DNA of 64,000 nucleotides from Stichopus chloronotus (taxonomy: Eukaryota > Echinodermata > Holothuroidea > Aspidochirotida > Stichopodidae): NCBI GenBank assembly GCA_021234535.1, contig CM037843.1:6218820-6282819 (forward strand), given 5' to 3'. Position numbers and translations under genes: made by a program. Within the stretch, counting starts at the first letter, position 1. Every line of letters begins with the position of its first letter. The notes under the pieces were generated by a model, which saw only the letters and a program-made list of their open reading frames with translations, was not told where the DNA came from and ran no database searches. This document shows positions 1,434 through 35,337 of the stretch, in pieces.

Positions 1434-1921
1434 CTACCTGCAACCACATCCATCGACCACTACGTCTTGCAGGGTAACGATCTTAGGTTTTTCACGTTCG
1501 TAGAAGAGAACGGTGAGGGGTTTGAAAGACAGCGGGGTGCAACAGGGGGACGGCGAGGCGTTTGGGTTGGTACTCCTCTGATATCTGACCAGCTGATTGT
1601 ACATATTAATGTCAGCTCGGATGTAAAGGCAATTTCCAGCACAGAGGTTCGGGTAAAATCCCTTCGGTTGCCTAACCCAAGTCCAACCAAGATCTGCTTC
1701 AAAATTGACATATAGCGTTCTTTTGCAGCAGGTAGCCACGCTGTCGTCGCACCGGCGGTTGAAAAACGCCCTCTTCCGACGCGAATGACCTTCAGTTGAC
1801 AACAACTTTGAGGAGTCTCCGGAGAGCATCACGATTAACTTTGGATGTTTGTCGGGCGGGTGATGATTTCGTCTTGTTATATCGCCTCTTTTAAATGATT
1901 CGGTGTAGGAGCCCCTCGGAT
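1434..1921 (-). CDS. TGFB: TGF-beta coding exon 4: RGD, furin site and mature growth factor
   Basis: The terminal coding exon starts after acceptor cttctgatatag and ends at TAG (1434-1436). It encodes residues 290-451. K300-RGD-I304 is the integrin-binding motif at the same place as in TGFB1/TGFB3 LAP. RRKR at 337-340 is the furin processing site. The mature chain of 111 residues has nine cysteines: C7, C14, C15, C43, C47, C76, C77, C108 and C110 by mature numbering, giving the cystine knot, the extra N-terminal disulfide and the inter-chain cysteine in PCC. The last residues are GCGCR. Vertebrate mature TGF-beta is 112 residues. The whole mature domain is in one exon, whereas vertebrate genes interrupt it. 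Confidence 0.97.
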
Positions 1922-2000
1922 CTATATCAGAAGACGAAATAATGAGTATGTAGTTGTCATCAAATGTCAGCAGCTTTTGAACTCTCCAAACAATATAAAC

Positions 2001-2079
<79 letters not shown>

Positions 2080-5000
2080 CTGAATATCTGGATCAACAAC
2101 ATGATCAACATGGTTCACTCGTGTTTACCCTCACACCTTTGTTCCAAAATTGTGAACCGAGCACATGCACCGGTATTTACCTGCAAATTCAATCTCCAAA
2201 TTGTTCCACGGGTGAGCGGGAAGAAATGCACCACACTCGACATTGACCTCAAATCCATGGTTTGAATCTGGTAAATGATAAATAAGAACAATTAGAATAA
2301 GCAGAATAGACAATGCTGCAGAATTTTAGCAAAGAGAATGCTCAGATAATTGCTCCTCTTATACATGTATATATTTGGAAGTCTCTTCTAATCTGCCTGT
2401 GCACTCAAGGGTCCACACACGCCGCCAAAATGCACACACACCAACGGTAAAACCAACAGTAACACAATATATAGGTCCCTTACCTGATAAACAATTTGGA
2501 CAACGATCACCACGATTGCGCATTGTAACAAATATTGATGGACACATATATGGCTCGAATAACAGACATAGACGAACGGACAGACAGATCTAGAGACAGA
2601 TAGATATATGCCCTTCGATTTCCCTTGACCCTGTATGACAAAGGATTTCTACCCTCTGTGTGAAAGTCTAACCTCTACTGCACAACATGTGTAATAGCAT
2701 AAAGACGCAATAGTTGTGAATGTAATAACCGATTTGAATATACCTAAGCATCTCGTCAACTAGAATCACTGAAGAGTTCAAATGTACTCTGGGAGTCCGG
2801 GATGCACGCAATGAGTGGGTCGTGACGTCACTTTTGTCATTTTTATAAGCCTTTTTCTTTGAAGGCATGAGTTAAACGACCGCAGTTATTGTGGGCTCAG
2901 ATCTATAAATTTCTGACCTCTGGTTTAACCTGTCACCCGTCAGTGAACATCTGAAGATCAGTCCGTCTTCTCTACCTCTGACAATGTCAGACAACTTTAT
3001 TTCAAATTGACGATGATGGGATTGTTTATGTGTTTTGGTTGCTGATAAGGAAAACCCATTTCATGATCTCTGCCGCCATTTTTGTAGTTTGTCCCAAATT
3101 ATCCACAAGCGCTACTGACACATGTTGAACATTCGTTTTGTGTTCACCGGAGTGTGAGCAGTCGGCCATACGTATTTATTGTTCATTTCTGCGTACATGT
3201 GTCTCATTTAGAGTTAAAGGTTTCACTTTTCGTTCCTGGAATGTATACCTACGTTTATCCTGCATACGTAATCAGACCGTAATCACATCCAAAGTTTGAT
3301 TCATTTGGTTCAATGTTTGAGTGGCCTAAACACGTCCTGTGTATGTTTCTGTTTACCAGAAACTGAGTTCAGTGTGACGTTTGAAGAAGGATTCCTTGTG
3401 GAAATGCGAAAAGGCTAAAATCGTAACTACACATTGTCTTGTGTAACCAGTGGGCGTCGTCAAGATGGAGAGGAGGGGGGGGGGGGGGGGTACACGTGCT
3501 CCTTGTGCTCTCTCAACTGAGATTTGGGATTTGAAAGGAATGTATATCTCCTGCAGTCAGAGAATCGTATTCAAAAGTAATCCACCTTTAATATTAGGTG
3601 CGTGTGTTAAATCAATACAATTCTTTAAATGATGACTTACATACATCACAAATACAGTAACACCCAGGAGTCTCTGGGACTTCCCCTCCCCAGACCCCCT
3701 CAGGGACTTTGCCCCTGGACTAGAACAACTTAAATTTTACACTTGCTTTAGGCATACTTGGAGCTATCCAATTGTGATTTTAGACCTATGTTTAGTCCAC
3801 AGAACTACCCTTCGAACGATTAATTCAATACATTACAAGTACTGTAACACCTGGGAGCTTTGTCACATGGACTTGAAGTAGGCCCTAATCCAAATTGGGT
3901 TTAAACCTGTGGTTAGGCATACTTGAGGGTATTCTCTTTTCATTTTTGACTTGTGTTTAGTCTATAGCATTACCTCTCAAATGATGACTTAAATACATCG
4001 TATATACCATAACACCCATGAGCTTCTGAGGTTTTGCCCCCGTGTTCACCGCAGGGACTTTGTCCATCTACTTGAAGTTATCCAGCTGTGTTAATAGACA
4101 ATAGAATCACCCCAAAGTGATGACTTTAATACATCACCAATGTCGTAAAACCTAGGGGCTTCCGGGATTTTGCCCCGTGGGCCCCACCAGGACGTCGCCC
4201 CTGGGTCCCATCAGGAGTCTCATGCAAGCCCTTGGAAGCCTGGATCCCATCCCTTATGGGCCTTGCACTTCGCCCTCGGAGGCAACGCCGGCGCCATGTG
4301 TAGTTTCCCTTGCACAATCATAGTACCCCCAAGTGCGCCCGAAATGAAAAGTCTGGCGACGCCTGTGGTAATAACAGAGCAAACTTTCTCATTTATTCTA
4401 GTTCTATTTATGAGAGTACTCATTCTTGGACGAAAACTCAAATAAATTAGTGGGGGTGGTAATATTTCATAAAAAAATTGTATTATTGGCATAGATTATT
4501 TTGTTTCAAATGTTTCGAATTCCTCAATGTAGGTTTGAGAAAACACATTATGTAATTTTGCTGTACGGCGATAGTGACTTTTTATTCCTCTTGGCTCCAC
4601 GTTAATAAGTCACCTTCTGTATTGTGTCTTATGTTTGCCTTGAGTGTTTTGCTTATGTCAAATTTTGTGGTAGGGCCTAATGAAGCAGGCTACGTTAAAA
4701 CGGTTCCTTCGCATTTCTCACTTACCTGGGTCTCTAAGCCAAGCATGTACTACTTCAGTGACGTCAATGGTAACAGGACCTTCATGTTGGGGATCAAAGG
4801 ACTTAGTGAATACGTGTTTGGTGATATACTCGTTCCTCTTTTTGACCAGCTTATAAACGGAGATGACCTGTTCCATAGACTGTCTGGGGTTGCTTATCTG
4901 ATATAAGCGTAAGTTGGCTTCAGCTACATTTTTGGGACTTCGGCCCTCAAGGTCACTTATATTAAACCAATAAAACCTTGCATATCTTTCCCGACTAAGA

Positions 5001-8000
5001 AAATAATCTGCAAAGAAACCAAAACAAACACAAAATTAATATTAATGGGATGACAAGATTGACGTAGAACAGTTAATGCATTAAATCAATGTGGACCATT
5101 ACGTGTTTGGCCGCCGTTAGCTTATCCGAGAGTTTTATCCCGACTGAATGCACATTTACTCGGCTGTCAAGTGACTGTAGATTTGCTGTCCGATTACCTC
5201 TTCTATCGTACTTGAGTCTGCGTAGCTAATGATCAAGTAATGATCAACGACCGAAAATAAAACATGTTCAAAACAAGTTAACACTCGCTACGCATGCCCT
5301 ATAATAGACTGTGACAGTTTAGGCGTTCAAAATATTCCCCTTTTCAGTCATTCTGTCTCTTGATTGCTCCAATCTCATTCGTGATCAATCAACGTTAACA
5401 ATCAAAACCGATTTGGGGAAGACAGCCGCTAATAATCGAAAATATTGCCTTGCTTGTCTCCTCTTTTCAGTTTTGTCTAATTCCTAAAACGTCTTCCTGT
5501 TTTCCGTCAGTCAAGAAAGGTCGACAAGTTTATCACAATGGGTGGTCTGATGTGTTTTTGTCTCTTTAAGTCTGATTTACATTAATGTAAAATGATATGA
5601 CACGTTATCAAACCAGCTCTCTGATCATAGCAAATGATCCTCCCTTCTGCTTCGACCGACCACCCACTCTTCTCCAGAGTATTTCATACGTTTCCCAATG
5701 GATAAAACATGTAGGCTGAGCATCCAGTACATACATACATACTAGGCCTAACGGCATGTTGCATTTCCCACTCACAAAATCATAGGACTATTTTTATCTT
5801 TTTTTTTTATTTCCTAAAATTTTGTAGCTGGTACAAATTCAGCGAGACAACTTATCTTTTCGTAAGTTGAGTACAAGCAGAGAACTACTGAATACGTTTA
5901 GCGGAATCTGTCGAAGTGTTCTAGGCATTGGCAGAAATAGGCCTAACCAGCGGCAGTATATACCCAGAAAGGGTCTACTTTAAAGCACAGAATTTTCATA
6001 CATGACGTCACAACACAAACACATGACTGGTGAAAAACACAGTGACCCTTTAGTGTTGATAGCGAGGATTTGTTGGTAATCCAGATTCGGTTTATATATA
6101 GCTGCTATCAAAAGGTCATCGTTAACTATTCGTAAAGTGGATGTTGCCGAAAACGTGTTTGAGAGTTGCGGGTTCGGAAGTAGTTCCGAGGGTGAAAAGA
6201 TCTATTCCAAATGATTAACTTGCAGTTGAATACCATATTATTGCACGATGAAGAAGTATTATTCAGCATATAAAACACAGGTAAAGCAGGATGAATATTG
6301 AGATAAACACCAAGATTTGGATAAGGCAATGCCATAAGAGAGTATTAATAAGTCATACGACAGAATTTTGATATTTTGCATTGACTTTTAATGTTATCGG
6401 TTGAAGATTACCATCACTAATTTCCCTTATCATTACTTGCTCACATGACCATTATTACTGTTTGGCAAACCACGAGGAATTATCTAAAATAAAAACATCT
6501 GAAATCTTAAAAACAAAACAATCAAAATATTGATGTTTCATTTACTTCGTTCAATTCGCAATAAAATTAGTACACATTGAATTAATCATAAAAGCTGTTC
6601 GGTAAAAGTTGCTTCACGGCTATAAAATGTTATTTAACAGCATGGCGGTATCCCCTGTAGTCTGCATATACGTACATAATGGAAAGCACGTTTTATGCTT
6701 CACTTTAACACGATTACTACAGAAAGTGTGGATCCCTTTAACCTCTAGAGCAATTATCGCCAGTTCAATGAGAACACATCCAATCCAAGTAAGGTTCCAC
6801 TCTTCTTCGCGTTCGAGCGCTAGTTGCAACATCCCAGTTGTGGCTGTAACGGCACAATTACTATTACCAAGTTTAAAAGCCACAGAAGGCCCAAAATTAA
6901 ACTAAGTCTACTTGATACATAAAAATATGTAACGATACAACGTTGATTCTTGTGACTGTATCTGCTACTTGTAAAATTGATATGACAGCAGCACGGTTTA
7001 TATATATCTATGGTCTCCGTTTATATATCTTTTGTTTCCCACCTTCGCATACCATGGTGTTAAATTATGACTCGCCTTGACCTAAATTTGGCGGTCATTA
7101 CGTTTCGGTCCGTCGGCAGATAGGCTAGTACACACGTCTAGAACGAACTGGAATGCACCAGCTATGTACTTTGCACAGCTACACTATCTTACACACGAAA
7201 GTGTGTGTTAGGAAGATCAAGTGTGGTAGAGACCCAGACACCCAAACAGCATTTGCTTTCTACACTGGATGTGCTCCTTACATGCATTGGAACAACAGCG
7301 ATTCTGATAACACATCGGAAACGCTGTATGCTGGGGTCTACGAAGTAAAACATATTTTTAAATATATTCAGACCACTAAGGCAGCTTTAACTCATAATTT
7401 TGTAGAATTCATATTTTTTCCATGTCTTTCAGGAATACTGCGCGAGTACAAATGCATGCTTCCTTACAACTGCCTTAGTTACTTTCAAAAGAAAGCCATT
7501 TGAAGAGGACGACCGTATATGACAACCCATTTCAGTACTTATTTTAAGATTAAAGATACCTTTAAGTAATTAAGAGTATCTTAAAGTGATTACTGATATC
7601 TTTAATTATTTGATGATATCTGTAAATGATCTTTAATTAGTTATAGATGTCTTCAAATAATTAAAGATACCCGTAATATCAACAGATTACAGATATCTTT
7701 CATTCATAGAAACATATCTTTAAAACTTTTAAAGATACCTTTGATTCAATTCAAGACATATTTTATTCGCCTAAGGATATCTTGAAATAATTTAAAAGTA
7801 TCTACAATTCATCTAAAGATATCTCTAATTCGCATTATTGATATATTGATAATTCCCTATTAAGTATATCGTTAATTCCTATTAAAGATATATTTTAATA
7901 AGTTAAAGTTATCTTTCATTCACTTAAATATATCTTCAATCACTTTATAATATCTTTCATCCTTTAAAGATATCTACAATTCATTTAAAGGTATCTTCAA

Positions 8001-11000
8001 TTGATTTAGAGATGTATCTATAATTCATTTAAAGATATCTAAATTAATTCGATTTACAGTTATCTTCTATTCTTTTAAAGATACGTTTAACCTTTAATTA
8101 ATGAAAGATGTCTTCAATTACTTGAAAATATACTAAAAAAATATACTTGGAAGTACTCAAATGGCTTGCCCTACGACCGAAACTAAACGTCATTTTAAAT
8201 CTTGTTCGACTTGTCTAAATTCCGCTCTTTGAAACCAAAGTAAGTCGTTCCGCAAATTAGTTAAGGACATGCCTATCGTGTTAGAGTTGGAGGGTAACTG
8301 CGTTAAAGTCCGAACATTTGTAGAGAACGTTCTTTCCATTAGAAAGATTTCACAGACTGTTACAAAGAGCCGGTAACTTAGCTGGCAAGGGTCGGCAAGT
8401 TATAGCGGCTCATTACCCAAAGTAACATCACCAAGTTTCCACTTCACGCCATATTTAACTCAAGTTATTTCCGCAATGTTTATTGCAGGCCGCCATTGGA
8501 ATTTATTCCTGAGTCCAAAATGGTGGTGCAAGACAGTAATTACATAGGGCATAAATCACTTTTTGTGACTGTGATAATATTTCCTAGTGTAGGCTCGTGG
8601 TCTACCGCGTGGTAGGTCACTAGCATTGGGGTTTTATAATGCAGTGCATAGGAAGATAAGCAGTTGTGAGGAAAACCTTAAAATGTAATTGGCCTCTGAA
8701 GAAGATACAAATTTCATGAAGATGAGGGAAATTTGTATCTCTTTATTTGTGAAAACCAGATCTCAATAACATGATTGTTGTCTTTTGGGAAAAGAGTACC
8801 CATGTCACAGTGGTGCTACACATTATACTATTGGAAACACTGTGATATTACACAGACACTACTAAGTACTGTAGGCCTTGATATTATGTGGTTTATCTTG
8901 ACTGACGGGAATTGAAGGTACAGTGTGATAGCGTAGGCCTAAGAGATGTGATCTAAGTTTCGCATTTCGAGTTAAATCATCTTTTTTGATCTCCAAGAGC
9001 AAAAAAGACTTGCTGCGTGACATTTTGTTACATTGAGACACCTGGAACTCCTTCCGATTCTCCGATGAAATTATCTTGTCTCAAACGGCTATGGACAAGG
9101 TACTGGTGCGAGATTTGACGTGGCTGCAGTGAGAAAAGTTATGGTCGCTCGTTTCAGAACCTCTTAAAAGTGTCACTGGAATATTCCTTTAAATTTCCTG
9201 TCCGGTTCTCCTTCAAGTAAACTACGTATGCTAGTGGCATTACATAAGAAAGAGACTGAAACGCGCAAATGATCCTTTTATCAACAAAAACTACAGTTGT
9301 TTTAAATTTGAATGTGCTATTCTGTAAATTTTAAATGCCTTGAATTTGGTTGAGTAGAGGCTCATTGCAGTTTCTACTCATCGTCCAAGTTTCTAGTCGT
9401 TCTATGGCTCAATGGGAGAAAGACCTGAAAATAAAAGTAGGTTATGGAAAAGTCATTGGAAGAACCAAATATTCTTCTTTTGAGTGTTGCAGCAAACTAT
9501 GCCTCCGGGTGAATTCCTTTCGATTAAACTTGATCCGAGAAACAAATAGACCTTAGCATTTCTCAATTATTTTGATTGACATGTTTGCGTCTCTTTCATG
9601 TGACTATTTTCCTACATAGGCCTATGTGTTGATTGTTTTTCAGTACTCTTTGTAGATTTGCTGTTATTCTTTTAGTAGGCCTGTGTATTTTAATTAAGTA
9701 GTTTAATCATTGCAGTGAGTTTACATGCCAGTCGGAATAGAATCGAACAAAAAAAAACAAAAAAAAAAAATGGGCGGACTGTCACAGAAAATTATTGGGG
9801 TATCGAAGTAAAAGAGATGCGAAGAAAGACACGGATGGTGGCGTACGTGATATTTTCGTCGAGGAGCAAAACATAACTGTGTCATGGTCTCTACCCTGGC
9901 GTCGTCGTTAACATGGTGGATGATTTTTTTTCCGTCCAGCTTATCGCTGCAGCAGCCACGCGGGACGAAAAAGCCCCAGAGGCGCTACGAAGCTACTCTG
10001 TCGCTTGATCCTACCGTATCTCATGGATATAAACTTTAGCCATACATCCCGCCTGTTAACACTATGTGTGTATACCGAATGTTTCGCTTTGCGTGCCCAT
10101 GGGTGATATTAAATCCCAGCTGCAAACTGATTTCGGAGAAATCTGTTCCAAGGCGAACTTCTGCCCCACCTGAAGCCACTTGGACAGTTGAAGCATGGAA
10201 GTACTACCTCGAAACATTGCACCATATTTACCGTAAAGTAGTTTTCCAGCTCAGGTGTTGCGAATAACGTCATAAGCACCTTTGTAAAATGTTTTTGACC
10301 TCATGTGGTAATGCCTAACTTCCACTCAGTATCTATTTTCAGAATGACTGTTTGGTCCGGAAACCATGTGAAACATGGTGCGGCTAAGTGTAAAAGGGGT
10401 GCTGCCACAATAGTTTAAAACCAATGTTTTGTGGACATAGAATGATAGATCATTCAACATACAGGGAAGGACAGTAGTTTTCCTTTCAAATAATACGCTT
10501 CTCACAGACAGAAATCTTGTTATTTGTTGCTCAACAATAATTTTTCAAAATTCAAATGATACATTTTCCTCATCACATACATTATGTTTTGGGGGAGATG
10601 AAGCTTTAGCAGACGTGTAATGATGAGACTGAATTCTTTCACGATGATTAAAGCTATTTTCTTTCTGTGCTATGTTGGTGTATTCTAAGTGCCCTACTTC
10701 CCTTTAATTTCAACGCTTCTACGTCACAGATTCACAGTTCGTTTACTTTCAACAATCCACAACAGCCGACGAACGCAGCCTTCTTATCGACGTAGGCCTG
10801 TATATCGTATAATAGTATTGGAAGCCTACCGTATATTGCTAAGCCCTTGATAACCTTGCAAGCAGGGTGTGATGTGTCAGAGCTGGTGCATGAGTAATGC
10901 ACATCCGCCGAGCGGGTTGAACCCTCAAGGCAATCAAGTTTACCTGAGACCAGTTGACACGCCAGGCAAAAACTTACCAGTCTAATTGAAGACTTTGGAC

Positions 11001-12330
11001 TGAAAGAGTGGACCATGGACCATGTCATAATCTGTACATTTCTTCAAATTAGTCACTTGCCCTATACATATTAAAGTTCACGGGGAATCCAGGATTAAAA
11101 TTAGTAAGTACCCGTCATTACAGAATTAGGAGCTGAAAGAAGCCCAGGGTTTCCAAACAACTAAGAAGACGGGAACACAAGATGATACTGGAGCTGGGGA
11201 GGGGGGGGGGGGAAACAACGGTATTGAGTGGAGATACGGGGGCGGGTAGGGGAGAGCAGAATTCGACAACCGACTCATCGTTGTGGCAGAAAGTTACGAA
11301 GAGAAGTGCATCTTGTAGAGGGGGTCTCGGTAAGCTACCCAAGCTACTCGGTAAGCTACTCGGTGACTTCGGTAAGCTACCCAAGCTACTCGGTGAGCTA
11401 CTCGGTGACTTCGGTAAGCTACCCAAGCTACTCGGTGAGCTACTCGGTGACTTCGGTAAGCTACTCAAGCTACTCGGTAAGCTACTCGGTGACTTCGGTA
11501 AGCTACTCAATCACAGTAAGTGAAGTGAACTTATTACCGTTCCTCCAAGTTGGTTAGTAACTGAAAGACATACTATGTTCGTTAGCAATGAGATACTTTG
11601 GATCATTTACATAAATACGTTCAGATGTAGCATTCGTAATTCCCCCTCCCTCACCCCATATTTAAATCACTTCATCATAGCCTACATTTACAATGTTTCT
11701 GGATGAAACTTGCTTGCTTCCTCGGACTGAGAGTATTTACTGATCTTTTGTTTACTTGAATCGCAAAAGGACACACGGCGACCATAGTGTCTTGGGGATT
11801 GCGGTGTACTGCGGAATCTTCAATTCGCGGTGGAGGACAAACCGGAAGTAAGTACCTAATGTAACTCTGTGGGCACAAGTGATTCACAGAAGACAAGACA
11901 GTCCAAACAAATGCACGTATGGCATTCCATATGCACGCAGATTCCGGTCCACCTGGGAATATTTGGCACTGAGAGGTGTAGGTAGCCACGAAAAACGTAT
12001 ATACGGCACTGACAGAACTAGGCCTACGCAATATTAGGCCTATACCTGAGCAGAACATGCATTATTGCATGCAAGACCAAGGTGATACATTCAACAAAGA
12101 ATGAAGTATCCAATAACTTCACATTACCGGACTACGTACCCTACCTTTTGTCTATGGTATTTCTTTAAAGTGTGTCGAATAAGCTTATACGTACCTATGT
12201 TTAGCGCTTTATAACTGTTCCGTGACTGCTTTATCCCGTAGTTAAGCGTTAGCGCAACACTAACACTGGTCTGTAACACTGATTAAAAATTTGATCTCTG
12301 TGCTCACTTAACCTGTAAATGTCCTTAGCG

Positions 12331-12419
<89 letters not shown>

Positions 12420-12964
12420 GTTAGGTGAATATTTGAAACATTCTTTCCCTTCAGTGCGTACTCACCATCTTTGTATCCGTCCCAATCTTTCGCCGAATCG
12501 AAAATCATTGGAACTTGAGCGAAATACCCGTCTACATCATCGTCATCTTCATCTTGTCCTAAGTCACCGTCGGCCCCCTCTTCGACGGAGGCGGAAGAGG
12601 TGCAGTGTTTTTTACTGCTGGCGTATTTTTCCTCCATCAGTTCGACCGTCTGATTATAATAATTTATCAGCTCCTCCGGGAGCTGCGCCGGTCCGGTATC
12701 TTCCGGCGGTTGTGAAAAACCTAACTTGGTGAGTATCTGAAACCTCAGAGCGACTTTCCTTCGATTTATGTATTCGTCGAATTTGATAGAGCAGTCTGAA
12801 TGAGCTTGTCGGACGTAAAACGTTAAAATAATCAACCATAGAAACGTCGTTAATTTGCTCCTGACTGATATATGGTGGGTGCATCTCTTTGGTAGACTAT
12901 TTGCGGTCCAAATCCTTCGAAACATTTGGCACATGCCGGTAATCAGGCCGTCCTCCGACAACAT
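1434..12964 (-). CDS. TGFB: TGF-beta sensu stricto ligand precursor, whole gene span (4 coding exons)
   Basis: Spliced minus-strand gene: coding exons 12466-12964, 4726-5007, 2181-2267 and 1434-1921, all junctions in phase 1, summing to 451 residues plus stop. The product is a secreted growth-factor precursor. A hydrophobic signal segment lies at residues 38-51, the latency-associated peptide (LAP) at about 57-340, an RGD at 301-303, a furin site RRKR at 337-340 and a 111-residue mature domain at 341-451. The nine mature cysteines, including the extra N-terminal pair (C7 and the CC at 14-15 of the mature chain), and the DLGWxW and PKG(F/Y)xxN motifs mark the TGF-beta subfamily rather than BMP, activin or GDF. 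TGF-beta is known to be stored as a latent LAP complex that integrins open through RGD. The neighbour upstream on the same strand is RRP15. I see no recognisable promoter. Fewer introns than the vertebrate homologues, which is from memory. Confidence 0.93.
2004..2077. repeat. (AT)n microsatellite in TGF-beta intron 3
   Basis: About 37 uninterrupted AT dinucleotides between coding exons 3 and 4, producing false IYIYIY reading frames on both strands. Confidence 0.98.
2181..2267 (-). CDS. TGFB: TGF-beta coding exon 3: LAP bowtie region
   Basis: An 87-bp exon, phase 1 to phase 1, with acceptor tttaccag and donor TTTGCAG|GTAAAT. It encodes about residues 261-289: DSNHGFEVNVECGAF then WNNLEIEFA. 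This corresponds to the vertebrate LAP segment GF.(L/I)S.HC.C that carries the inter-chain bowtie cysteines. Only one cysteine (C272) is present where vertebrates have the Cys-x-Cys pair. The exon is too short to stand out as an open frame, but both splice sites, the phase and the homology agree. Confidence 0.92.
2268..4725 (-). other. TGF-beta intron 2
   Basis: Besides the tandem repeat at 3627-4345 and a G18 run near 3474-3491, nothing recognisable; the open frames at 2359-2868 match no protein I know. Confidence 0.8.
3627..4345. repeat. degenerate tandem repeat, 4 units of about 135-190 bp
   Basis: Unit starts are recognised by AAATGATGACTTACATACAT-like words at about 3627, 3814, 3979 and 4115, each followed by CAGTAACACCCAGGAG-like sequence and a CCCCTCAGGGACTTTGCCCC segment. 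In TGF-beta intron 2. Open frames at 4126-4445 on both strands lie in the last, GC-rich unit and are not supported as genes. Confidence 0.85.
4726..5007 (-). CDS. TGFB: TGF-beta coding exon 2: central LAP arm domain
   Basis: 94 codons in net, phase 1 to phase 1. The acceptor follows a pyrimidine-rich stretch ending ctttgcag, and the donor is CCCAG|GTAAGT. It encodes residues 167-260: FYWFNIS (equivalent to the conserved LAP F-N/D-x-S strand, with N182 a glycosylation site), AEANLRLYQ (equivalent to AELRLLR), then the arm segment EQVISVYK and finally IDVTEVVHAWLRDP, equivalent to the FDVT..V..WL strand of vertebrate LAP. In vertebrate TGFB genes, as I recall, this segment is split over two exons; here it is one continuous exon, and an apparent acceptor inside it (tatatcag) is simply coding for LYQ. 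The opposite strand is open for 110 codons here, which is a shadow. Confidence 0.93.
7540..8140. repeat. AT-rich palindromic satellite (AAAGATATCTTTAATTCATTT-type units)
   Basis: About 600 bp of roughly 30-bp degenerate units built from AAAGATATCTTTAATT, itself near-palindromic (AAAGATATCTTT). Lies in TGF-beta intron 1. Related sequence recurs at about 20860-20990 and 21400-21650 next to the dispersed repeat copies. Confidence 0.85.
10408..10706 (+). repeat. dispersed repeat family, copy 1 (TGF-beta intron 1)
   Basis: About 300 bp: starts near TTTAAAACCAATGTTTTGTGG, contains GTGGACATAGAATGATAGA, GGGAAGGACAGT, TCTCACAGACAGAAAT, ATTAAAGCTATTTTCTTTCT and ends at CCCTACTTCCCTTTAA. Two further same-strand copies lie at 21090-21400 and 21680-21997. 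No coding frame, no clear terminal repeats. Confidence 0.9.
11325..11515. repeat. 42-bp minisatellite, about 4 copies
   Basis: Units of GGTAAGCTACCCAAGCTACT then CGGTGAGCTACTCGGTGACTTC repeat at 42-bp spacing. The length is a multiple of 3 and the unit lacks stops, so several frames appear open (for example GKLPKLLGKLLGDF and SYPSYSVSYSVTSV). These are repeat artefacts, not genes. Confidence 0.92.
12331..12414. repeat. poly-A then (TA)n microsatellite in TGF-beta intron 1
   Basis: 16 A followed by about 34 TA dinucleotides, ending about 50 bp from the donor of coding exon 1. It generates a false IYIYIY frame on plus. Confidence 0.98.
12466..12964 (-). CDS. TGFB: TGF-beta coding exon 1: signal peptide and N-terminal LAP
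   Basis: Encodes residues 1-166 and ends in phase 1 at donor GATG|GTGAGT. The hydrophobic core (LTTFLWLIILTF, residues 38-49) is the signal peptide, followed by D57-C58, the LAP cysteine that in vertebrates bonds to LTBP or GARP. Helix-1 residues such as INRRKVALRFQILTKLG and the LPEELINYYN stretch match the LAP straitjacket region. N104-Q-T is a likely glycosylation site. Odd features are an acidic run (residues 128-146, mostly D/E) and an extra cysteine C121. The ATG used here gives an unusually long N-terminal extension; M11 and M14 are alternative starts. A good acceptor (ctctttcacacag) sits just before AAATG, so at least one upstream 5' exon, probably untranslated, is likely. Confidence 0.92.
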
Positions 12965-18900: not shown

Positions 18901-18956
18901 TCCTGCAATCTGAGAGGTATTTTCGATAAAAATGTCCTCGATAAGACACTTCCCAA

Positions 18957-23465: not shown

Positions 23466-23548
23466 ATGCCTAGAGACAATTCACTCGAACCGTCGCCTAC
23501 GGAGACTTTGGCTCCCTTATCCGGGAGGATGGCGGCTCCGACAAAACA
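23466..23548 (+). other. possible short coding exon, unassigned
   Basis: A GC-richer island inside AT-rich sequence. ATG at 23466 opens MPRDNSLEPSPTETLAPLSG and reaches a reasonable donor ACAAAACA|GTATGT. The minus strand is also open across it (67 codons, 23426-23629). Not recognised as any family; either strand or neither could be real. Confidence 0.2.
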
Positions 23549-24829: not shown

Positions 24830-26280
24830 GGTACGAATTTGCCCAAATTGATCGGCATTGCTTATAGCACGCGAAAAAAACATGGATTCCTAAATTCGGA
24901 CTCTGTCTTTTTTCTAATAATTTAGCTTTAAAAGAGCTGCTTTCTCTCAACATTTGTAAAGCTCCTGGTTCGGATGCAATCTGTCCAATTTTGTCGAGGT
25001 CACTTGCTCATCATTTCTGTATCCCACTGTCGTCGGGTTGAGGGTTACGTTCCTGACGACTACTGGGGGGGGGGGGGGTGCTAACATCGCCTTAATTTTT
25101 CAGAAGGGAGATAAGTCACAGCCGTATAATTAGACGCCTGTCAGTAGTGTTGTTTGTAAGGTCATCATGGAATATATTGTTAAAAAGTCAATGGTTAGTA
25201 TCTTCAATAGTCATTCATTAATCAGGATGTCTCAACATCGTCAGAAAAGATCCTACCTCACTTTTATCTTGGAGTTCACAGAAGATGTTACTAGTTCATT
25301 GGATAAGCAGAAGTATGTCGATTGATTTCCAAGATTTCCAGAAATCTTTTGATGCTGTTCTTCACCAGCGTTTTTTGCTTAAATTAAGAGTATGGGTATC
25401 TGCGGGAAGTTACTGACCTGGGATTCAGAATTAGCTATGTGATAGGAAACAAAGGATGTTTTTTTTAAGTGGCTGTTCTTCTTCTTAGCAGGAGGTTATT
25501 ATTGGGTTTCCCGGGGTCTGTGTTGGCCTGGGCCGCTTCTGCTTGTCGCTTTTATTAATGATATTGATGCTGATATTGTGGGTAGAGACAAGAAGTTCGC
25601 TCATGAAACTAACTTGACTATATTCTGAGGTCTCCTCTGGATGTGATTCAAAGAGTTTTCAAATGGATTTAGACAAGGTTTTCGCTTGGTCTCCGGAATG
25701 GCAAATGCTTTTCAATGTTGATAAATGCAAAGTAATGCATATTGGTAATAATAATCCTAGGTATACTTACACTTTGAATGGACAGTCAATGCAAGAGGTG
25801 TCCACATAGATTCTTCGTTACAACCATCTAAGCAGTGTGTTGAAGCACCTAAAAGAGGGAGTAGTAGGATTTTAGGTATGATTAAAAGAAATTTAAGTTT
25901 CCTTAAGCAAAACATTGTTGTTAGGCTTTACAAATAGTTGGTTAGGACCTTTTTTTAGAGTATGCTGTTCAAGGTTGGAACGCGGGCCATATTTTTCTAA
26001 AGATACAGATTACTTGAGAAAGTCCAGTGTAGGGCTACTAGATTTTCAAATCAAGGTACCTTAGGGTGTCCCTTACAATAGTAGTCTCTTAAATTTCACT
26101 TCATAAGCTGAAAAGATTATGGGTAGATTTGATACAAGTTTACAGGATTGTTCATGGTTTTGATAACTTTTTATTTTCTGACTTTTTCAAGTTAGCAGCT
26201 TTACTGAGTATTGCGTCATTGACGAAAAGGTTGAGGTGCGTAGTTCAAGAACTCAGTTAACGTTTTTAAACATGTAACCC
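24830..26280 (+). mobile_element. decayed non-LTR (LINE) retrotransposon reverse-transcriptase fragment
   Basis: Read across several frames, the plus strand shows reverse-transcriptase landmarks in order: KAPGSDAI near 24957 (the KAPGPDGI box), AFLEFTEDVTSS-like and DFQKSFDAVLHQR (the D-x-x-K-A-F-D region with its conserved D), GPLLLVAFINDID near 25525, KKFAHE near 25590 at the F/Y-A-D-D catalytic box (both aspartates lost), FNVDKCKVMHIGN near 25715 and a C-terminal Q-G-W-N box near 25970. Stops and frameshifts interrupt it throughout. The layout fits the CR1/Jockey-like group. It is a dead 3' portion in the RRP15-TGFB spacer. Confidence 0.85.
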
Positions 26281-28375
26281 CCCTCCAACATTTCAAATCG
26301 ATGGAAGTCGAGATGTGCGATGGGTTGGCGGAAAACGATCTGGTCGTTTACTCTCCTCCATCCCTTTTTTTGGAAAGCTCAAAAATCAAAATAAGTGAGG
26401 GGGTACTCCAACAAAAGAAAGAATTACAATTTTAACATTCCTTGACAGCCTCCAAATTAATGGACGTGACCAAACATTTACTGGCCATGATCTAAAGGGG
26501 CGGACGCTCTTACTCATCGATTTCTGCCAGGGGAGATGTTTCCTTGTTTTCGAATTTGGTTTCCATCGCTCTATTTTAAATTGTTGAACCGCAGATGTAT
26601 CATTGTCAAAGAAAAAACTGAGTTATTTAGCAAAAGATTGTCTGAAAGAGATAATGTATAGTAAAAGGGTGAAAAGTAAAAAGTTTAGATCTTCCTAGTT
26701 TAGAAAACACTTTTTCATACTAACTTAAAAACTGTTTGAAAATCTGCTGGTTTGAAGCGTTTCCAAAATTTCTTAAAAATGTCAAAATATTTCTACAGAA
26801 ACCTCAGGTTATGCCACTTTTTAGGGTGGCAAGTCTGAAAAAGTGACAAGACAAAGGTTGTATTACTTATCACAGATGTATTAATGTTGTACATTCTTGA
26901 GACAATGTTGTATGTATTGCAATACCTAAACACGTTTACCTTTTTTCCTCAGCAAACTGAGGAAAACGGGTAGGAAAGGAGGGGGGGGGGGGGGGGTTAG
27001 GAGGGAGTCAGCGGGGATTCGGAAGGACTGTGAATCCCATTCTGATATGGTAATCATGTGTGGATTGTTGGAAAGTTAGTTAATAATAATAAAGTTCATG
27101 AAATAGTAGTCAAATCACTTTTATAAGATGTGCCATACAAAATGTTTGTCATGATAATTTAAAACAGGGGAAAGGTAGTACCCATTTCCAAAAAAATTTA
27201 GCACAATGTATCTGAATTTACACAAACAGTAGACTTGAAGTAAACAGATGTGATGACAAGGACAATCCAGCATTTTATTTCATGTTCCCGGTATTTTCTG
27301 GACTTCAGACCAAGAATTGACCTTATACGGACATGTGAAGGCTTACTTAATCATGCCTATGCAACATTGGGGTGTTGAGTGCACAACTCTTTGAGAAAAA
27401 TCTCAAAGAAGAAGCAATATGGTATGTGTAGAAGTGGAACAAAGGCATCAACATCCACTGCCAAGTTCACATCGTGACTAAAGATGCAAACTGCACCTTT
27501 CAATATCTCAACCACACAAATGAAATAAAAAGAATTTTGCTAAAAATTTTCTGAAACTTCCACTTTTGAAAAATGACGAAGAGTGAAGGGAACACTCGAC
27601 CTGCAAAATTGGTGTGAAATTCATCTGTGTTGAGCAGACAGAGATATTAAATAAGATAAATCCAAATTGTATGGGTTTTTCATGAAAAGCACAAAAAAAA
27701 ATAATCTAGATTAAAGATTGACCTGTTCCATTAAACACAATACTCTTCCATCGCAGGCACACACATTTCTTCAGGTCACGTTAAATGTGTAGACAAAGAC
27801 AAAATGAAAGTTGGTAGAGCGAGGAGTACTTTATAGGTGTAATTCCTTAAAGATAAATGGTGCAGACAATTTAAAGAGTCTGCAGGCTAGGGTTCTTTTC
27901 TTTCAAGTTTTCGAAAACTTGACATGATCAGGTAAAACTTGAAACACATTCTCGACACTCAGTACAATAGCCACATGGTCCATGAAGAATGAAATGCCAC
28001 CTGCACACACACCACAGCAATTGTCATTCCACCACTCACAGGAAATTTGTTTTCTCTCTAAAATGTTCTACCAATAATCGACTGCAAAAAACTGTGATTT
28101 CACTTCTTGTTCACATGAGGTGAGCAATTTCAAACACATATCTTTATATATCCCACAAGTTGTTCTGCAGGTTTTCTCCACAGTATATCCTAAGTTTTCT
28201 ACTTGAAACCTGCCGGGGTTCCCTGTCCCTTTTCTGACAGGAACAGACAACAATACAGTTATATACCCATCACGACCATCATTTCATCAGAGACGGGTAC
28301 AAGGTTGCAGGCAGATGGCCTGGGGATTGCTGCTTTTTAGGATGCAGTCAGTTTAAGAGTCAGTGTTCACTGTCC
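26281..28375. other. 3' flank of RRP15
   Basis: Probable RRP15 3' UTR on the minus strand, a candidate polyadenylation signal at 27274-27279 and a long G run near 26980-26996. No coding exon seen. Confidence 0.6.
27274..27279 (-). promoter_or_regulatory. candidate polyadenylation signal for RRP15
   Basis: AATAAA on the minus strand (TTTATT on plus), about 1.1 kb after the RRP15 stop. It is one canonical hexamer in the AT-rich 3' flank; nearer non-canonical signals cannot be excluded. Confidence 0.3.
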
Positions 28376-28537
28376 TCATTCTGAGTTATCATCATCACTC
28401 TCAGATGAAGACTCCTCCTGGACAGCACTTTCTTCTTCATCCTCTTTTGTCCCTTTGTCCCAGTCCTTCATTGTTGCACCCATCATGAAGTCTTCCTTCA
28501 GGACACTCCATGCAGGCTTTTCTTCTTCGACACTGAC
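28376..28537 (-). CDS. RRP15: RRP15 exon 5: C-terminal DFMMGA-MKDWD motif and acidic tail
   Basis: 162 bp including the TGA at 28376-28378. Entered in phase 0 after acceptor gtattcgtag. It encodes [19 protein letters not shown] followed by [10 protein letters not shown] and an acidic serine-rich tail ending DDDNSE. Human RRP15 has the near-identical GWTILRDDFMMGASMKDWD. It lies 2.5 kb from exon 4, across the hAT-like element, and is not visible as a long ORF in isolation. Confidence 0.95.
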
Positions 28538-31500
28538 CTACGAATACAGATGAGAGTGATGTTAATTCGATCAATTGAAATTCACTTTCATGCAAGCGCT
28601 TCCAGAAGACTCACCGTGTAGTGTTTACAACCATAGAAAAGAAAGTAGTCCCATGTACCCCTTCCACAAGACAGCATATTCCTCAGCTTTGAGCCCGGTC
28701 AAATTCCTAAGGGGGTGGGGCCAAAGGAGACACACAGGCGGTTCCACTAGCACTTGTGACATAACATAGGGTTTGTTTGTATATTGTCACTGGTGTTCTG
28801 AGGTTAGCTGCGGTGAGGGGGGATGAGCCTCTAACTGTTCAAACTATGAGGCACCCTCACATGCAATTTAAAGATAAAATTTCAACCTTACATATCCATG
28901 GATTTATGTTTAGGATTTCTTTATCAATTTTCGAAACTTTCAGTGTGGTGAAAACTTCTTCTAGCGAGGGAGGGGGGTAAGCACTCCCATCCCACCCTTC
29001 CCCCTTGACTAGAGCTCTAAGTCTCCTTCAGGATTATGTGTTTGTGTAGAGGGAGTTGACATACATACACTTCAACTTTTCCATTTTTCAGTCATTTTTT
29101 TTTTGTTCACTTGTGCATATTACACTGGGGTAGACAAAAAATCAGATTCACCTGATGACTTGCAGGCATATTTCACGGTCAAAGGATACATTATGAGTTG
29201 AAAGTTGGGGATTTTTTGTAAGTACTTCTTTCTAAGGATGATATTTCTAGTGCTGGTCAGAAGCCAGAAGTTTCAGACCTTGTGTCTAACTAAACTGACC
29301 ACCACCTATGCTAACTAATTAACCAATTAACGACCTATCCTCAGAGGCAGCAGCAGTAGCGGGCATACACCCAATCATTAATAAAGTAACTGTATCTAAC
29401 ATAATCACATTTGCAAATGTTGACATTCCTATACTACAACTACAGGAATTTCAGTGATTTCTTCTCATGGGGGCAAAATCTAGTATTAAGATAATAATCA
29501 GTGGCTCAAAGCTGGGTGACCATTGATCTTAAAAGGTCACTGGTCTGCAAATTGGCAGGGCACTGATCATCAAATGGATACTCTATCAACTCTTTGCAAG
29601 TATGAGTCTGCATCAATATCAGAGCCCACCACCAAAACTTGAGGATAAACAAAAGCCTCTAAAAGCATCGTGAACATTTGAAACGATGCAGTTTGCTTCT
29701 GTGGTAGCACAGATCAGCTCCATGCACAGAGCAATCTATTCTACTGTAGGGATGCACCAGATATCCTGTCCGGTCTGACTATCCTGCTGGATATTGAAAT
29801 AAAATCCGGTTCTGGCCAGACTTTGGCCAGATATTTTTAGTCAATGTCCTGAAGGATTTTTTCTTGCAATTTTCAGATGTTGGTATGAAATGTCAGAGCA
29901 TAGATCTCTCAAAGAATTAAAAGACAGAATATGAACTGTAAGGAACAAGACAGTGTAGAACACAATTTAACATTCTGACCATCAAAAAGACTTGTTATAG
30001 TAATGAAGTGAATGAATTTTAGAATACATCATAGAACTAAGAGCTTTTCTCTTCCATATGTGTGTACACTTCCTCTTTAGGCTTTGTTACTGCATCATTT
30101 TTAAGTGGAGTATCACAAATTAATGCAGCATGATGAGCGACATTCTTGTTATTTCACTTGATGCATAGGCTACTTAAATAAATGTGATCTATCCCTGGGG
30201 GTATTAACATAAAGCTAGCTAAACAAAGTAAAACTGTTCCTCATGACAAACATTTCTCTTGTTGGGTAATTTATATTCAGAGATAACAAGCATGATTTAG
30301 CCTGGGCTTGGATGAAGTCAAGTCTAAGTCCACTATTTGAAGGGACTCGCACCTGGCCTAGACTTGGACCGCAGCTACAGGGAGGGGAGCACTGGGTGGT
30401 GAGGGGCTAGAACAAGCAGGAAAGGGTTACAACTTCAGATGAGTTGAGGAGAGAGAGCTCAAAAGTCTCAAATTGGAGGAAATAGTGGGCAGTGATTTAA
30501 GAGACAGGTGCAGTAAACAGGCCCCACAGAGTAGATATGCGTGCCCTGAGCTTGGATCAAGGAATTCAACAAAACCATATTAAATTTAGTACACAACTTT
30601 CATTTCTAGCTTTTGAAAGATTTCTGTAAAGGGCATATACATGGGAAATCACTTCAATTAGGAATGACAATTCTGAGCTGACCTATTTTGTTATGTCATC
30701 TAAAGGATGTCTGCAAATGTTCAGCAACTTTTCCAAAACATTTTACAAATTGGGGATATTATGACTGTCAGCACACAACAGCACTGGCCAGTTGAATGTG
30801 TTTAGGTTATTGGTGAAATTATTACATAGTTGTATATCAATAGAAGCAGTGATTTTTCAAGTACCTAGTACATTTGTCCTGCACATTATAAAAATGTTGC
30901 ATTTGGGAAGATAGCAATCCTGTCCAACTCTAATTTTCAAAAGGACTGTGAACATCCAGCCGGATCTCAAAATTCAAAATCTTGTGCATCCCTAATTATT
31001 CTATCCATTATCTCAATGACCTGAATCACCATGACGATCTTGAAAAACAAAGATAATCTTACATCCACCGTCTGTTGACTTCTTACCTTTTTCCCTTTTG
31101 CGTTGGAGTTCTCTTTTGAGGTCTTCAGCATGTCTAAGAAGTCTCCTTTGGTCAGCGACGCCTCCGTCTTGATCCTTTTGTTCTCTGTTGTCGCTTCTTT
31201 CAGCTTCTCCTCTCTCAGTTTCTGCTGCTTACCCACTGCATTGAAGAACTGTACAACGCCTCTATATCAGATAGCAGAGAAACATAAGAATTGCTTAACG
31301 GAAACAAAGTTGGCTAAATGAAAAAGAAAAAATTCAAAAAAGGAAGTTTGAAGAAATTGCTGGGCCACAGAAGTTGTATCTTTACGAATATCTCACTTAA
31401 ATCTGTTCTATTATCATGACAAAATCAATTTTGAGGTATACTCTGATGACATATTAGTATGATGCATTGTCTAAATATATTAACTACACACGAGCAAGAC

Positions 31501-34500
31501 ATTTGCAGTTATGTAATTCTAGCAATGAGAATACATCGGATACACTCCACAACATATGTGAAGGACAACATCAAGGGAACATTCTGAAATTGTAATTACT
31601 CCTTGGTGACTAAGGTCCGCTTTGAAAATATTCTGTGACGTTCAATGGATTCTGAACATTTCAACGACTGTCCGACCTTGACAGTTATTGCACACAGACA
31701 CCAGAACTCCCTCTGGAAGGAGACGTTGAGTGGTAGGACATACAGTATCAGATGAAATGCTGTGAGGTACTAACCCGGCATTCAGCATTACCAAACAGGT
31801 ATTACCAGTAACTCACTTGTAAACTATTAAGCCAAAGTCTAAGTGAGTTATCTAATGCTATTAAATGGCTTGCCTCTGTCAAAGTAATGGTAGCTGACTT
31901 TTGGGTTCAGTATTATCCATAGAATTGTTCAATATAGTGAGGAAAAACTTTAAATGGTTAGACAATGACTGTAAGGTAAGAGGAATGAAATGGAAGAATG
32001 AAAAAAAAAAACCAGATGCAATGAAAACTCAAAGTTTATTGTATTGTCTAGTGATGGCTGGATTACCTTACTGCTATTCTTTGTAACTTTTTTTCAACAT
32101 CCTTCTTCAAAGGTTGTGGTTTTTCTCTTCCAATGTTGTCTCTTTGCTTCTTCAGCTCCTCCTGAAACACATTGACAATTTCAATTACTGGCAACTAATT
32201 ATACACATAAATCACTTCAAGGATTTTATCAATAAATTAAGGTATGTAACAGTGTCATGAGATTTCTCTTTCACCTTTGCACTGTTTCATAAAATACAGA
32301 ACAATATAATTTTTTTCTCTTTCAACATGACATTATGACCACTTTAAAGTGTTCAACAGACTCTCTTTCATGCTTGATGACACATATTTGGCCTTTTGAC
32401 ATGACCTTAATACCCCTTGCAAGCCACCTCAAAAAAGTCTAGCATTGGACTGACACACCCAAACAACATAACGAGAATGATGTTTAACTGACCATGTGGA
32501 TCATCACAGCATGAGGTGATAAAACTGACCTAGGGCGAAGAGGGTTCGCAACAAATTGAACCTCACCGAAACAATAAAAAGGTGCTGTTGGGCCAAATGG
32601 CTGTTAAGCGTAGGAATTTCCACATGAATGAATTTCATTCTGTGAAATTCAAGTGAACCCACAGTGCAAGAAATGCCATCCAGAAATAAAATGTGCCATG
32701 ACCACAGATGCATATACCAATACAAAACTAAAAAAGTATAGGCTACAAAATTTTGTTTCAAGACATGACATCATTTGATAAGGTTCATCTGTATTCTGAA
32801 GGTTTCAGTGCTTTTCATTTAAGTTTGTGGTATCAGGAAGACGTTTTCACAACAGGGGCACTATGATACACACGATAAAATTGAGTCGGAAAAAATTTCA
32901 AATTTTTATCGCTTATTGCGGCCATATTTTCATTGTGACCGATTGTTGTCTTTCGTAAAATCACATGATCAACAGGCCAATGAAAAAAATTGCGGAGCAA
33001 TAAAAAAAAGTCACATGTAGTGTGAAAGCAAAAATATAGATGAGCAACATCTTTATCGAACCATATCGCAACACGCTTAGTGTGAAATGGCCTAAGTGCA
33101 GCATAAACGGCCCAATAATGAAAACCTGCTTTAATGACCAATGATTGGAACTCATGTGGCACTGTGCCCTTCCTGAGGCTACTAAAATGAACTTGTAGCT
33201 GATCTTTTTTTCAGGGCTCTTTTCTCATCATGATGCTCTCACCAATTTGTGCTTGGTCTCCAGTTCCTCCTTCTCTGCATCTTTGGCTTTACTGTACGCC
33301 TTTGACTTTGACAGGACAAGTGGCGTTGTCGTAGCTGCAGGGCGACCAAGAATTTTGGACATGACGTCTGCCCAACCGGCACCAGGAACGGGTTTCTGGT
33401 TATCCTCTCCATCACTGGAAACTCTCTCTTCTTCGTGAGTTTCTTCATCATCTTCAGCACTGTCACCTCTCTGGCTTACTTCTTTAGATTTGTGATGCTT
33501 TGCAAGTGATTTTTTGCTCCTTTTCAATTTCTTTGCAGGGGATATGGCTGTTGAATGTAAGATTCAAAATGGGACCAAATTGTTTTGAGTTAAAACTGTA
33601 TGTTTTGCTAAAACTCTGAAAGAACACTAACGCTTTGATTCTTTTAGGTGTAAAGGTCTTGTGTGTATGGGCTAGGGGATTGGGGATGTATTGTGTAAAT
33701 ATATCTTAGAACACCCTTAAGCCGAATTCCCTCTCAAAGCATAGAGGGTTAGTGACAGGAATTTTAACAGACTGTTACTCTACCCGAATGGGTTTGAATC
33801 CTCTTCTAACCTCTTTCTTTTCATAGCGACCCCGATTTTCCATGTTTCAAAGTGGAAAATTCTGTTTTCCATTTCTCAAATTCCATGTTTTTCCATTTTC
33901 AGCTTTCCCATTTCTGTGAATTTCTGTTTCAAACATAAATGGCAATTGCAAGTTACTCGTATGTGAGTTGCTCCGCGTGTAAACAAAAGCGCATAGAGAT
34001 ATAGAATCCATATACACAGTGTAACATTAGGATGAAAAATACATCAGTGTAACGAAGGTTTGCTCAAAAGAAATCATTCCACACTGCTTCAAAACTTAAA
34101 TGCTTCCAAAAATGCTGCATATTTCATGTAAACCAAACTTAAATACATGCAATTTTAAAGTTTAAATGTACAGAAAGGTCTCACTTGAAAAAATATGAGA
34201 TCGCCCAAAGCCTTCTGAAAAGTTAGAGTAATTATATCCCAACGTAGTTAGATGTATAGGGAATAGCCTAACCACCTCAGAGATACTGTAAAGCATATAT
34301 TTCATCACCCGTGAAAAAATGGCTGACTATTTGTAAGTTAAAGAATTCATCTTATTTAGTAAACAGTCAAATGCATTCTACTGTTTTTCAGTCCAAGAGG
34401 CATAAAATATTGAGATTCAAGATTGAATTTGTAGAAGAAAGATGGCTTCATTGAGGCAACAGTAGCATTAACATAAGTTATTTAACCTCTTTGAGTTATC

Positions 34501-35337
34501 AAGGGCTAGGAATAATTCTAGTCTGTGCTAGCCATCATGGGAAAGCTCGGTTGATTCAATCAGGTATTTTAGCCAGTTGCAGCTGGTATGCTGGCGTCGA
34601 CTATCATATTATGCTTACAAAGTGTTACGATAGTTTCTTTGATACATCAAATGTAAATTTTAGAGGGATAAGAAGGCCAAAAAAAAAAGACGATCTCCGA
34701 AAGAGATACAAAAAAACTTCAAAACATAGACACACAGACCCTAGTCACTATTTTAGTTGTCTGAACTCTGATACCCTTGTTGACGTCACTTTGTGGTCAT
34801 GGATTCTAAATTTGTACCATTTACCAAGAATGGTTTATCTGCACACTCTTGAACTAACAAAATAATCCCTGGTCCAATTTGCTAACATTTCAATCTGGGT
34901 GTTGTGCACTGCCCCCACATACTGTAGTGGTACAATGGAGACACATACAGTAACAATAACATTGACTTTAGTACATGTTTTAATATATTATGATCGCGAT
35001 GTTCGTTAAGTGATCGATTCATGATTTCCCCATTATTGCAAGGTATATAGGTTATCCCCACTCTTCATACACTACAGGCCAGTAACAATTTTGCGAAAGT
35101 TTCAAATTCAATGAATCTGTTTATTTCGCCTAGCCTATACCTCCACACTACAGTACTGGCGTTATTGTTTTTCGTGTTAAAAACGTACAATAATTCAGTA
35201 CCTGATGCTAGGTCCGATTCATCGTCCCCATCACTACCAGAAGAATAATTAATTGAAACAAACGGCTTTTTGTACTTATGTTTTCTCCCCTGTCCAGCAT
35301 CGTCTTTGCTAAGAAAAGATACTACCTGGTCACTCAT
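28376..35337 (-). CDS. RRP15: RRP15-like ribosomal RNA processing protein, whole gene span (5 exons)
   Basis: Spliced minus-strand gene, exons 35202-35337, 33243-33547, 32067-32161, 31087-31261 and 28376-28537. Phases match at all four junctions (1, 0, 2, 0) and give 290 residues; the human protein is about 282. RRP15 is a nucleolar factor for pre-60S maturation (processing of 27S/32S pre-rRNA). Family hallmarks are seen in order: an acidic N-terminus, [10 protein letters not shown], a basic coiled K/E-rich stretch, [22 protein letters not shown] and a C-terminal [18 protein letters not shown] motif followed by an acidic tail. The gene lies about 15.4 kb upstream of the TGF-beta gene on the same strand. 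Confidence 0.95.
28538..31086 (-). other. RRP15 intron 4
   Basis: Half of it is the hAT-like insertion at 29744-30996. Short open frames at 28575-28980 on plus are not supported. Confidence 0.85.
29744..30996. mobile_element. non-autonomous hAT-like element in RRP15 intron 4
   Basis: Left end CTGTAGGGATGCACCAGAT at 29744 and right end GTGCATCCCTAA at about 30984-30995 form short terminal inverted repeats sharing TAGGGATGCAC. Both ends are flanked by TATTCTA (29737-29743 and 30997-31003), 7 of the 8 bases expected for a hAT target-site duplication. The GGGATGCAC terminus is typical of hAT-type elements. About 1.25 kb; no transposase frame is visible inside. Confidence 0.65.
31087..31261 (-). 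CDS. RRP15: RRP15 exon 4: GVVQFFNAV and helical core
   Basis: 175 bp. It is entered in phase 2 after acceptor ctgatatag (one base completes an arginine codon) and left in phase 0 at AAAAAG|GTAAGA. It encodes [13 protein letters not shown], a K/E-rich helix, and [11 protein letters not shown], equivalent to the human KKDFISVLR segment. The reading frame stays open into the intron downstream until the end of a hAT-like insertion, so this exon can be mistaken for a longer open frame. Confidence 0.94.
32067..32161 (-). CDS. RRP15: RRP15 exon 3: conserved central helix
   Basis: 95 bp, phase 0 to phase 2. Acceptor tgtttcag|GAGGAG, donor GCAGTAAG|GTAATC. It encodes [18 protein letters not shown] then [11 protein letters not shown], matching the RRP15 segment LQRIATRGVVQLFNAV of which the rest is on exon 4. 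Too short to appear as an open frame on its own; assigned by homology and exact phase fit. Confidence 0.93.
33243..33547 (-). CDS. RRP15: RRP15 exon 2: basic/acidic linker and GWADVM core motif
   Basis: 305 bp, entered in phase 1 after acceptor attcaacag and left in phase 0 at AAATTG|GTGAGA. It encodes about residues 46-147: a lysine-rich block ([20 protein letters not shown]), a strongly acidic block ([10 protein letters not shown]) and then [14 protein letters not shown], the RRP15 signature (GWADAMAKVL in human), followed by a K/E-rich helix. Confidence 0.93.
35202..35337 (-). CDS. RRP15: RRP15 exon 1: acidic N-terminus
   Basis: Starts at ATG 35335-35337 with [13 protein letters not shown] and ends in phase 1 at donor GCATCAG|GTACTG. 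It contains a basic patch (GRKHKYKKP) followed by a serine/aspartate-rich segment ([10 protein letters not shown]), typical of nucleolar proteins and a likely casein-kinase-2 target by composition. The codon split over the junction becomes alanine with exon 2. No other in-frame upstream start was needed. Confidence 0.85.

Follow-up and report, generated by a model that had tools for sequence, protein, structure and literature searches.

Does the neighbourhood that RRP15 shares with TGFB2 in vertebrates predate the duplications that produced TGFB1, TGFB2 and TGFB3? We addressed this question in a 64-kb window (the whole stretch of DNA analysed, C15:6218820-6282819, from an assembly of 719 Mb in 267 contigs), in which RRP15 lies directly upstream of a TGF-beta gene, both on the minus strand. 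Spliced models of the two genes, with nothing recognised between them, bear out the adjacency proposed in an initial annotation, whose outer coordinates coincide to the base with the stop codon of TGF-beta (1434) and the start codon of RRP15 (35337). We conclude, with a probability of about 0.82, that the microsynteny is inherited and goes back to an ancestor that this animal shares with vertebrates.

The identity of RRP15 is supported along most of its length. The model (minus strand, 28376-35337) joins five coding exons into a protein of 290 residues, with every intron GT-AG and no internal stop codon (Table 1). Pfam places the Rrp15p domain on a single exon, the fourth, and human RRP15 (PDB 8fkp) aligns with residues 67-285 of the model, most of the protein, at E=7.3e-30. 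A search of the whole assembly returned one RRP15 match.

The TGF-beta model (minus strand, 1434-12964) has four coding exons, again with every intron GT-AG, and an open frame of 451 residues. Ranked against PDB, the protein matched the TGFB2 (6.8e-53), TGFB3 (1.3e-51) and TGFB1 (6.6e-42) proproteins, the first entry outside TGFB1-3 being GDF8 at E=1.2e-20. By sequence comparison the predicted product thus belongs to TGF-beta sensu stricto, the TGFB1-3 type, and stands further from GDF8, activin or BMP. Nine ligand cysteines follow the RRKR basic cleavage site, and Cys58 in the straitjacket aligns with its TGFB1 counterpart. The bowtie region has a single cysteine (C272), not C-X-C; two of the compared sequences (P0002 and P0003) likewise have a single cysteine and a third (P0004) has C-X-C, a form typical of vertebrate members that we did not take as defining TGF-beta sensu stricto. 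An RGD integrin motif stands at residue 301 in the prodomain, as it does in the prodomains of P0002-P0004.

According to PMC8931421, the RGD motif is kept in TGFB1 and TGFB3, is absent from TGFB2, and is reported for sea urchins, tunicates and hemichordates, with true TGF-beta genes confined to deuterostomes. Because the gene is of this true TGF-beta type, the animal is probably a deuterostome, and the RGD-bearing TGF-beta together with single DPF and actinin matches (below) fits an invertebrate. Any gene whose lineage diverged ahead of the duplications is equally related to TGFB1-3, so the first rank of TGFB2 does not make this gene a TGFB2.

Two further observations concern the TGF-beta gene and its relatives. 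A genome-wide search for the TGF_beta domain gave 16 matches, five of them on C15: one in the window and four at 32.21, 32.32, 34.86 and 34.90 Mb (three of these four are the loci L001, L002 and L007), with two of the matches 37 kb apart. C15 makes up 6.9% of the assembly, and the binomial tail for 5 of 16 is 0.0036 if the matches are independent. Intron 1 of the gene holds a tandem array at window 7548-8090, with a self-complementary 21-base unit around TTAAAGATATCTTTAA.

We then consider the interval between the RRP15 stop codon and the TGF-beta start codon, where an intervening gene would have broken the adjacency. When the spacer was cut into 30 chunks and searched in six frames, none matched a Pfam family at E<=0.05, and the whole 64-kb window yielded no Rfam family at the gathering score and no tRNA with ARAGORN (bacterial code). 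A similar Pfam scan picked up pieces of the small RNASEH2C gene nearby, so the method is not blind to small genes; between the two outer coordinates, the six-frame scan covered the spacer. A further gene in the spacer is therefore ruled out as far as the Pfam, Rfam and tRNA scans reach, which leaves room for a short lineage-specific gene or a non-coding RNA. Among the 120 best listed open reading frames, those in the spacer had coding scores of at most 12.0 and 10.9; since some true exons score only about 9, the coding score alone excludes nothing there. The spacer may contain the RRP15 3' untranslated region and the TGF-beta 5' untranslated region, and the TGF-beta promoter with any 5' untranslated exon probably lies within it.

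The pair also stands in the order and orientation of human RRP15 and TGFB2. The adjacency itself is documented in vertebrates: human RRP15 and TGFB2 adjoin, 7 kb apart (PMC6428585), while RRP15 is described as "closely adjacent" to TGF-beta2B in lamprey and as a consistent member of the TGF-beta2 region in human, mouse and coelacanth (PMC8931421). These neighbourhoods, in which RRP15 adjoins a TGF-beta2-type gene or shares its region, are among the closest known counterparts of the arrangement in the window, from which they differ in that the TGF-beta gene here carries RGD. In openly licensed papers, without their supplements, we found reports of the pair in vertebrates only and none in an invertebrate; a large microsynteny table may already contain it.

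How readily could such an arrangement arise by chance? By our own arithmetic, assuming 20,000-30,000 genes, RRP15 would be the immediate same-strand upstream neighbour of TGF-beta with a chance of about 2e-5 under full scrambling, and of about 3e-4 if shuffling is confined to the genes of the contig (gene number assumed). With RRP15 matching once genome-wide, the adjacency is beyond chance on either figure. These figures also bear on the idea that a common ancestral chromosome was all that joined the genes, which would have come to adjoin independently here and in vertebrates. A shared chromosome by itself raises the chance of such a coincidence, and the local order otherwise differs, with RNASEH2C and Son-of-sevenless (SOS) here where mammals have SPATA17 and GPATCH2. 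Even given linkage, however, independent rearrangement needs the event of about 3e-4, and it must explain why order and strand agree between this animal and human and why lamprey has the adjacency. We consider it very unlikely.

To place the locus in its wider setting, we compared its contig with the vertebrate fourfold paralogy regions (human 1q41-43, 11q13, 14q24 and 19q13). If C15 is an unduplicated equivalent of the TGFB-bearing regions, it should carry genes that in vertebrates are linked to TGFB1, TGFB2 or TGFB3. Nine families, including RRP15 and RNASEH2C, were fixed in advance, and six linkage markers were searched in the assembly. DPF gave one match genome-wide, on C15 at 3.22 Mb. IFT43 gave two, both on C15 at 31.91 Mb, about 3 kb apart and about 25.6 Mb from the window, which are probably one gene. 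EFhand_Ca_insen gave one strong match, on C15 at 30.48 Mb, identified as alpha-actinin by PDB matches (E=1.3e-26). The KA1 domain of MARK kinases gave three matches, the best on C15 and putatively a MARK gene. All three clear markers (DPF, IFT43 and alpha-actinin) are thus on C15; from the contig's share of the assembly length we calculate a chance of about 3e-4 for this, which supports the conclusion that C15 carries further genes from the regions duplicated around vertebrate TGFB. The locus resembles the paralogy regions in that TGF-beta has DPF, alpha-actinin and the best MARK-type KA1 match on its contig; the difference is that DPF and actinin are single here, as expected before duplication.

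In a separate observation, C15:2898192-2952501 holds two nuclear-receptor DNA-binding domains about 49 kb apart, each apparently split by an intron. Both were found as partial matches of the ERR search (2.90-2.95 Mb), and the 67-68% identity of their first pieces to the ERR query is the highest among pieces of at least 40 residues, making an ERR pair possible.

Several points weigh against shared ancestry of the pair. The companion genes lie about 3 to 27 Mb away, and hence support the contig rather than the adjacency or its date. Two weaker EFhand_Ca_insen matches are on C10, presumed to be alpha-spectrin, and the other two KA1 matches are off C15, on C14 and C16. The ERR search gave 41 matches on many contigs, seven on C15 and the best scores on C10, and the SIPA1L search gave none, as it also did in control genomes. 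Locally, neither SPATA17 nor GPATCH2, the further mammalian neighbours of RRP15, was seen, and RNASEH2C and SOS stand there instead. Finally, continuity between this animal and lamprey is deduced from the two ends, with one invertebrate genome at one of them.

We nevertheless favour shared ancestry, because the order and strand are the same here and in human, RRP15 adjoins the lamprey gene, the companions are on C15 and RRP15 matches once. The adjacency here, in human and in lamprey, with three companion genes on the contig, accords with the earlier proposal that, in the case of an invertebrate deuterostome, the pair has been together since before the vertebrate TGFB duplications. The ancestor would have had RRP15 directly upstream of a single TGF-beta gene on the same strand, an arrangement kept here, and we infer that the adjacency was never broken and remade. 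The vertebrate region would then have been duplicated and different genes lost from each copy, RRP15 surviving beside TGFB2 and IFT43 beside TGFB3. RNASEH2C and others would have survived elsewhere in the same set of vertebrate regions. Retention would most likely reflect no more than a chromosome whose gene order changes slowly; the harm done by a break within the regulatory domain of TGF-beta may have contributed.

This history bears on which vertebrate paralogue kept what. RNASEH2C is on human 11q13, a region not known to hold a TGFB gene. The initial annotation had named TGFB2 as the paralogue that kept the ancestral neighbourhood, which holds for RRP15, but IFT43 is with TGFB3 and RGD with TGFB1 and TGFB3 (PMC8931421). 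The TGFB3 neighbourhood, described there as IFT43, TTLL5 and ESRRB, resembles this locus in that IFT43 is on the window's contig and RGD is common to the gene here and TGFB3; it differs in the long distance of IFT43 from the window here and in that RRP15 does not figure in that description. Since these features and RNASEH2C lie with different copies, no one paralogue is the faithful one: there was reciprocal loss after duplication, and no single paralogue kept everything.

Housekeeping-plus-signalling pairs are a usual form of genomic regulatory blocks, which counts for a different account of the retention: RRP15 would be a bystander tied to its neighbour because its introns, or the spacer, contain control elements of TGF-beta, with breaks selected against. 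The locus resembles such blocks in that a housekeeping gene and a signalling gene adjoin and the flank without genes is long; it differs in that conserved non-coding elements or a regulatory effect define those blocks, whereas here the likeness is one of gene layout alone. PMC3436827, which lists such blocks, groups 72 ultraconserved non-coding elements into one cluster and names for it RRP15 and TGFB2 as well as ESRRG, SPATA17 and USH2A, although the cluster's likely target would be ESRRG rather than TGFB2. In human, RRP15 also lies inside the TGFB2 topological domain (PMC10354941). In the same source, the TGFB2 promoter of breast-cancer cells contacts 15 regions within one domain. The domain border carries one of them, at -46 kb, another is at +32 kb and the remaining 13 are 116 to 1450 kb away; from these distances we deduce that 14 of the 15 are downstream. 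With RRP15 unaffected by Fra-1 knockdown (PMC10354941), these human data point away from the RRP15 side, and the long gene-free side here is downstream of TGF-beta. On balance, we regard constraint through RRP15 as rather unlikely.

The layout here, with a gene-free downstream flank and genes upstream, matches the human picture, although, given the size of the genome, 100 kb in which no gene was detected is weak evidence. RRP15 as an upstream boundary gene, TGF-beta and a long gene-free downstream domain might even form a regulatory unit dating from the ancestor that vertebrates share with echinoderm-like animals, which still sets TGF-beta expression and was inherited by TGFB2 but lost by TGFB1 and TGFB3, which would have diverged in expression; we think this unlikely. 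Co-transcription or shared promoter control, which the same strand and order would allow, is extremely improbable as what keeps RRP15 and TGF-beta together, given that a 15.4-kb spacer separates the coding regions and that, in the human data, RRP15 did not follow TGFB2 in its response to Fra-1 knockdown (PMC10354941).

We surveyed 100 kb on each side of the window for further genes. Upstream of RRP15, the genes detected are, in order, RNASEH2C, SOS and a xanthine-dehydrogenase/aldehyde-oxidase gene, all on the plus strand. The four-exon RNASEH2C model matched PDB at E=1.2e-21. For SOS, an N-terminal piece matched PDB at E=1.1e-27 and the RasGEF, DH and PH families were matched; for the dehydrogenase gene, one piece matched PDB at E=7.8e-11. 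The pieces of both were placed by eye. Beyond the right edge of the window, the scan covered 70 high-scoring open reading frames, and further genes may lie undetected in the intervals separating RNASEH2C, SOS and the dehydrogenase; a bL9m_N match (E=0.00013) and a few weak ones among these frames were left unplaced. A PDB scan of 48901-63900 in one frame per strand gave no match at E<=0.1. SPATA17, sought upstream of RRP15 as in mammals, was not seen where RNASEH2C stands, and no IQ motif was found at E<=0.05, SPATA17 having no good Pfam handle.

Table 1. Coding exons and spacer of the RRP15-TGF-beta pair, and exons of the next gene upstream (window positions)
Feature	Positions	Strand	Basis and remarks
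TGF-beta coding exon 4: prodomain end with RGD, RRKR cleavage site, entire ligand domain, stop codon	1434..1921	-	Pfam, gene model, PDB
TGF-beta coding exon 3	2181..2267	-	GT-AG, in frame; aligned in PDB search
TGF-beta coding exon 2 (propeptide)	4726..5007	-	Pfam PF00688 E=2.9e-11; gene model
TGF-beta coding exon 1: start codon, straitjacket and its cysteine; signal peptide putative, by eye	12466..12964	-	Pfam PF00688 E=9.8e-5, below curated cut-off; gene model and PDB
Spacer, RRP15 stop codon to TGF-beta start codon	12965..28375	.	15,411 bases; no gene detected
RRP15 coding exon 5, stop codon	28376..28537	-	Gene model and PDB alignment
RRP15 coding exon 4	31087..31261	-	Pfam Rrp15p E=2.3e-10; gene model
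RRP15 coding exon 3	32067..32161	-	Gene model and PDB alignment; acceptor possibly 3 or 6 bases further in
RRP15 coding exon 2	33243..33547	-	Spliced gene model and PDB alignment
RRP15 coding exon 1, start codon	35202..35337	-	Spliced gene model
RNASEH2C coding exon 1	42243..42393	+	Gene model; next gene detected upstream, divergent from RRP15
RNASEH2C exon 2	43983..44051	+	Pfam E=0.0025, below curated cut-off; gene model
RNASEH2C exon 3	45190..45233	+	Joins in frame
RNASEH2C exon 4	49226..49345	+	Pfam E=0.0085, below curated cut-off; gene model; last short exon unplaced

Repeats are also present on this side. Between RRP15 and RNASEH2C lies a piece of an ISXO2/IS1595-like transposase (40367-40735, minus strand; Pfam E=9.8e-7). 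Within the RNASEH2C region, a diverged tandem array with a unit of about 145 bases runs from window 46229-47188 on to about 50000, and by eye copies close to ggtcaaaggtcatttgaggtcaac recur in it.

Downstream of TGF-beta, six-frame Pfam searches of 100 kb (C15:6118820-6218819, ten loci) found retroelement pieces and no accepted cellular gene, a scan of this kind missing genes that lack a Pfam domain. The matches comprised RVT_1, a gag-type protease with zinc knuckles, a weak TAXi_C and two weak ones at E=0.033 and 0.041. The retroelement pieces in C15:6158820-6218819 fall in L009 or L023 and in L012 or L013, with the gag-type protease placed by eye at L009:8054-8839. Nup54_57_C was matched in 3 of 24 chunks of this flank (best 3.7e-6), DUF5472 in two and RDR6_2nd in one; as a source of these matches, L022:4999-9998 gave none in six frames. 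At L021:5223-6807, about 75 kb downstream of TGF-beta, a 109-base unit is repeated in 14.5 copies, 97% alike and open in several frames. The Nup54_57_C matches probably come from this array, because matches in three frames are what one would expect if the frame shifts from one copy to the next.

Together, these results offer a fixed point outside vertebrates from which the origin of the TGFB1, TGFB2 and TGFB3 regions from one locus may be read. The features of that ancestral locus would have been divided among the copies, RRP15 going with TGFB2, the RGD motif with TGFB1 and TGFB3, and IFT43 with TGFB3. The adjacency also makes it possible to test clearly whether the downstream side was the source of TGF-beta control all along.

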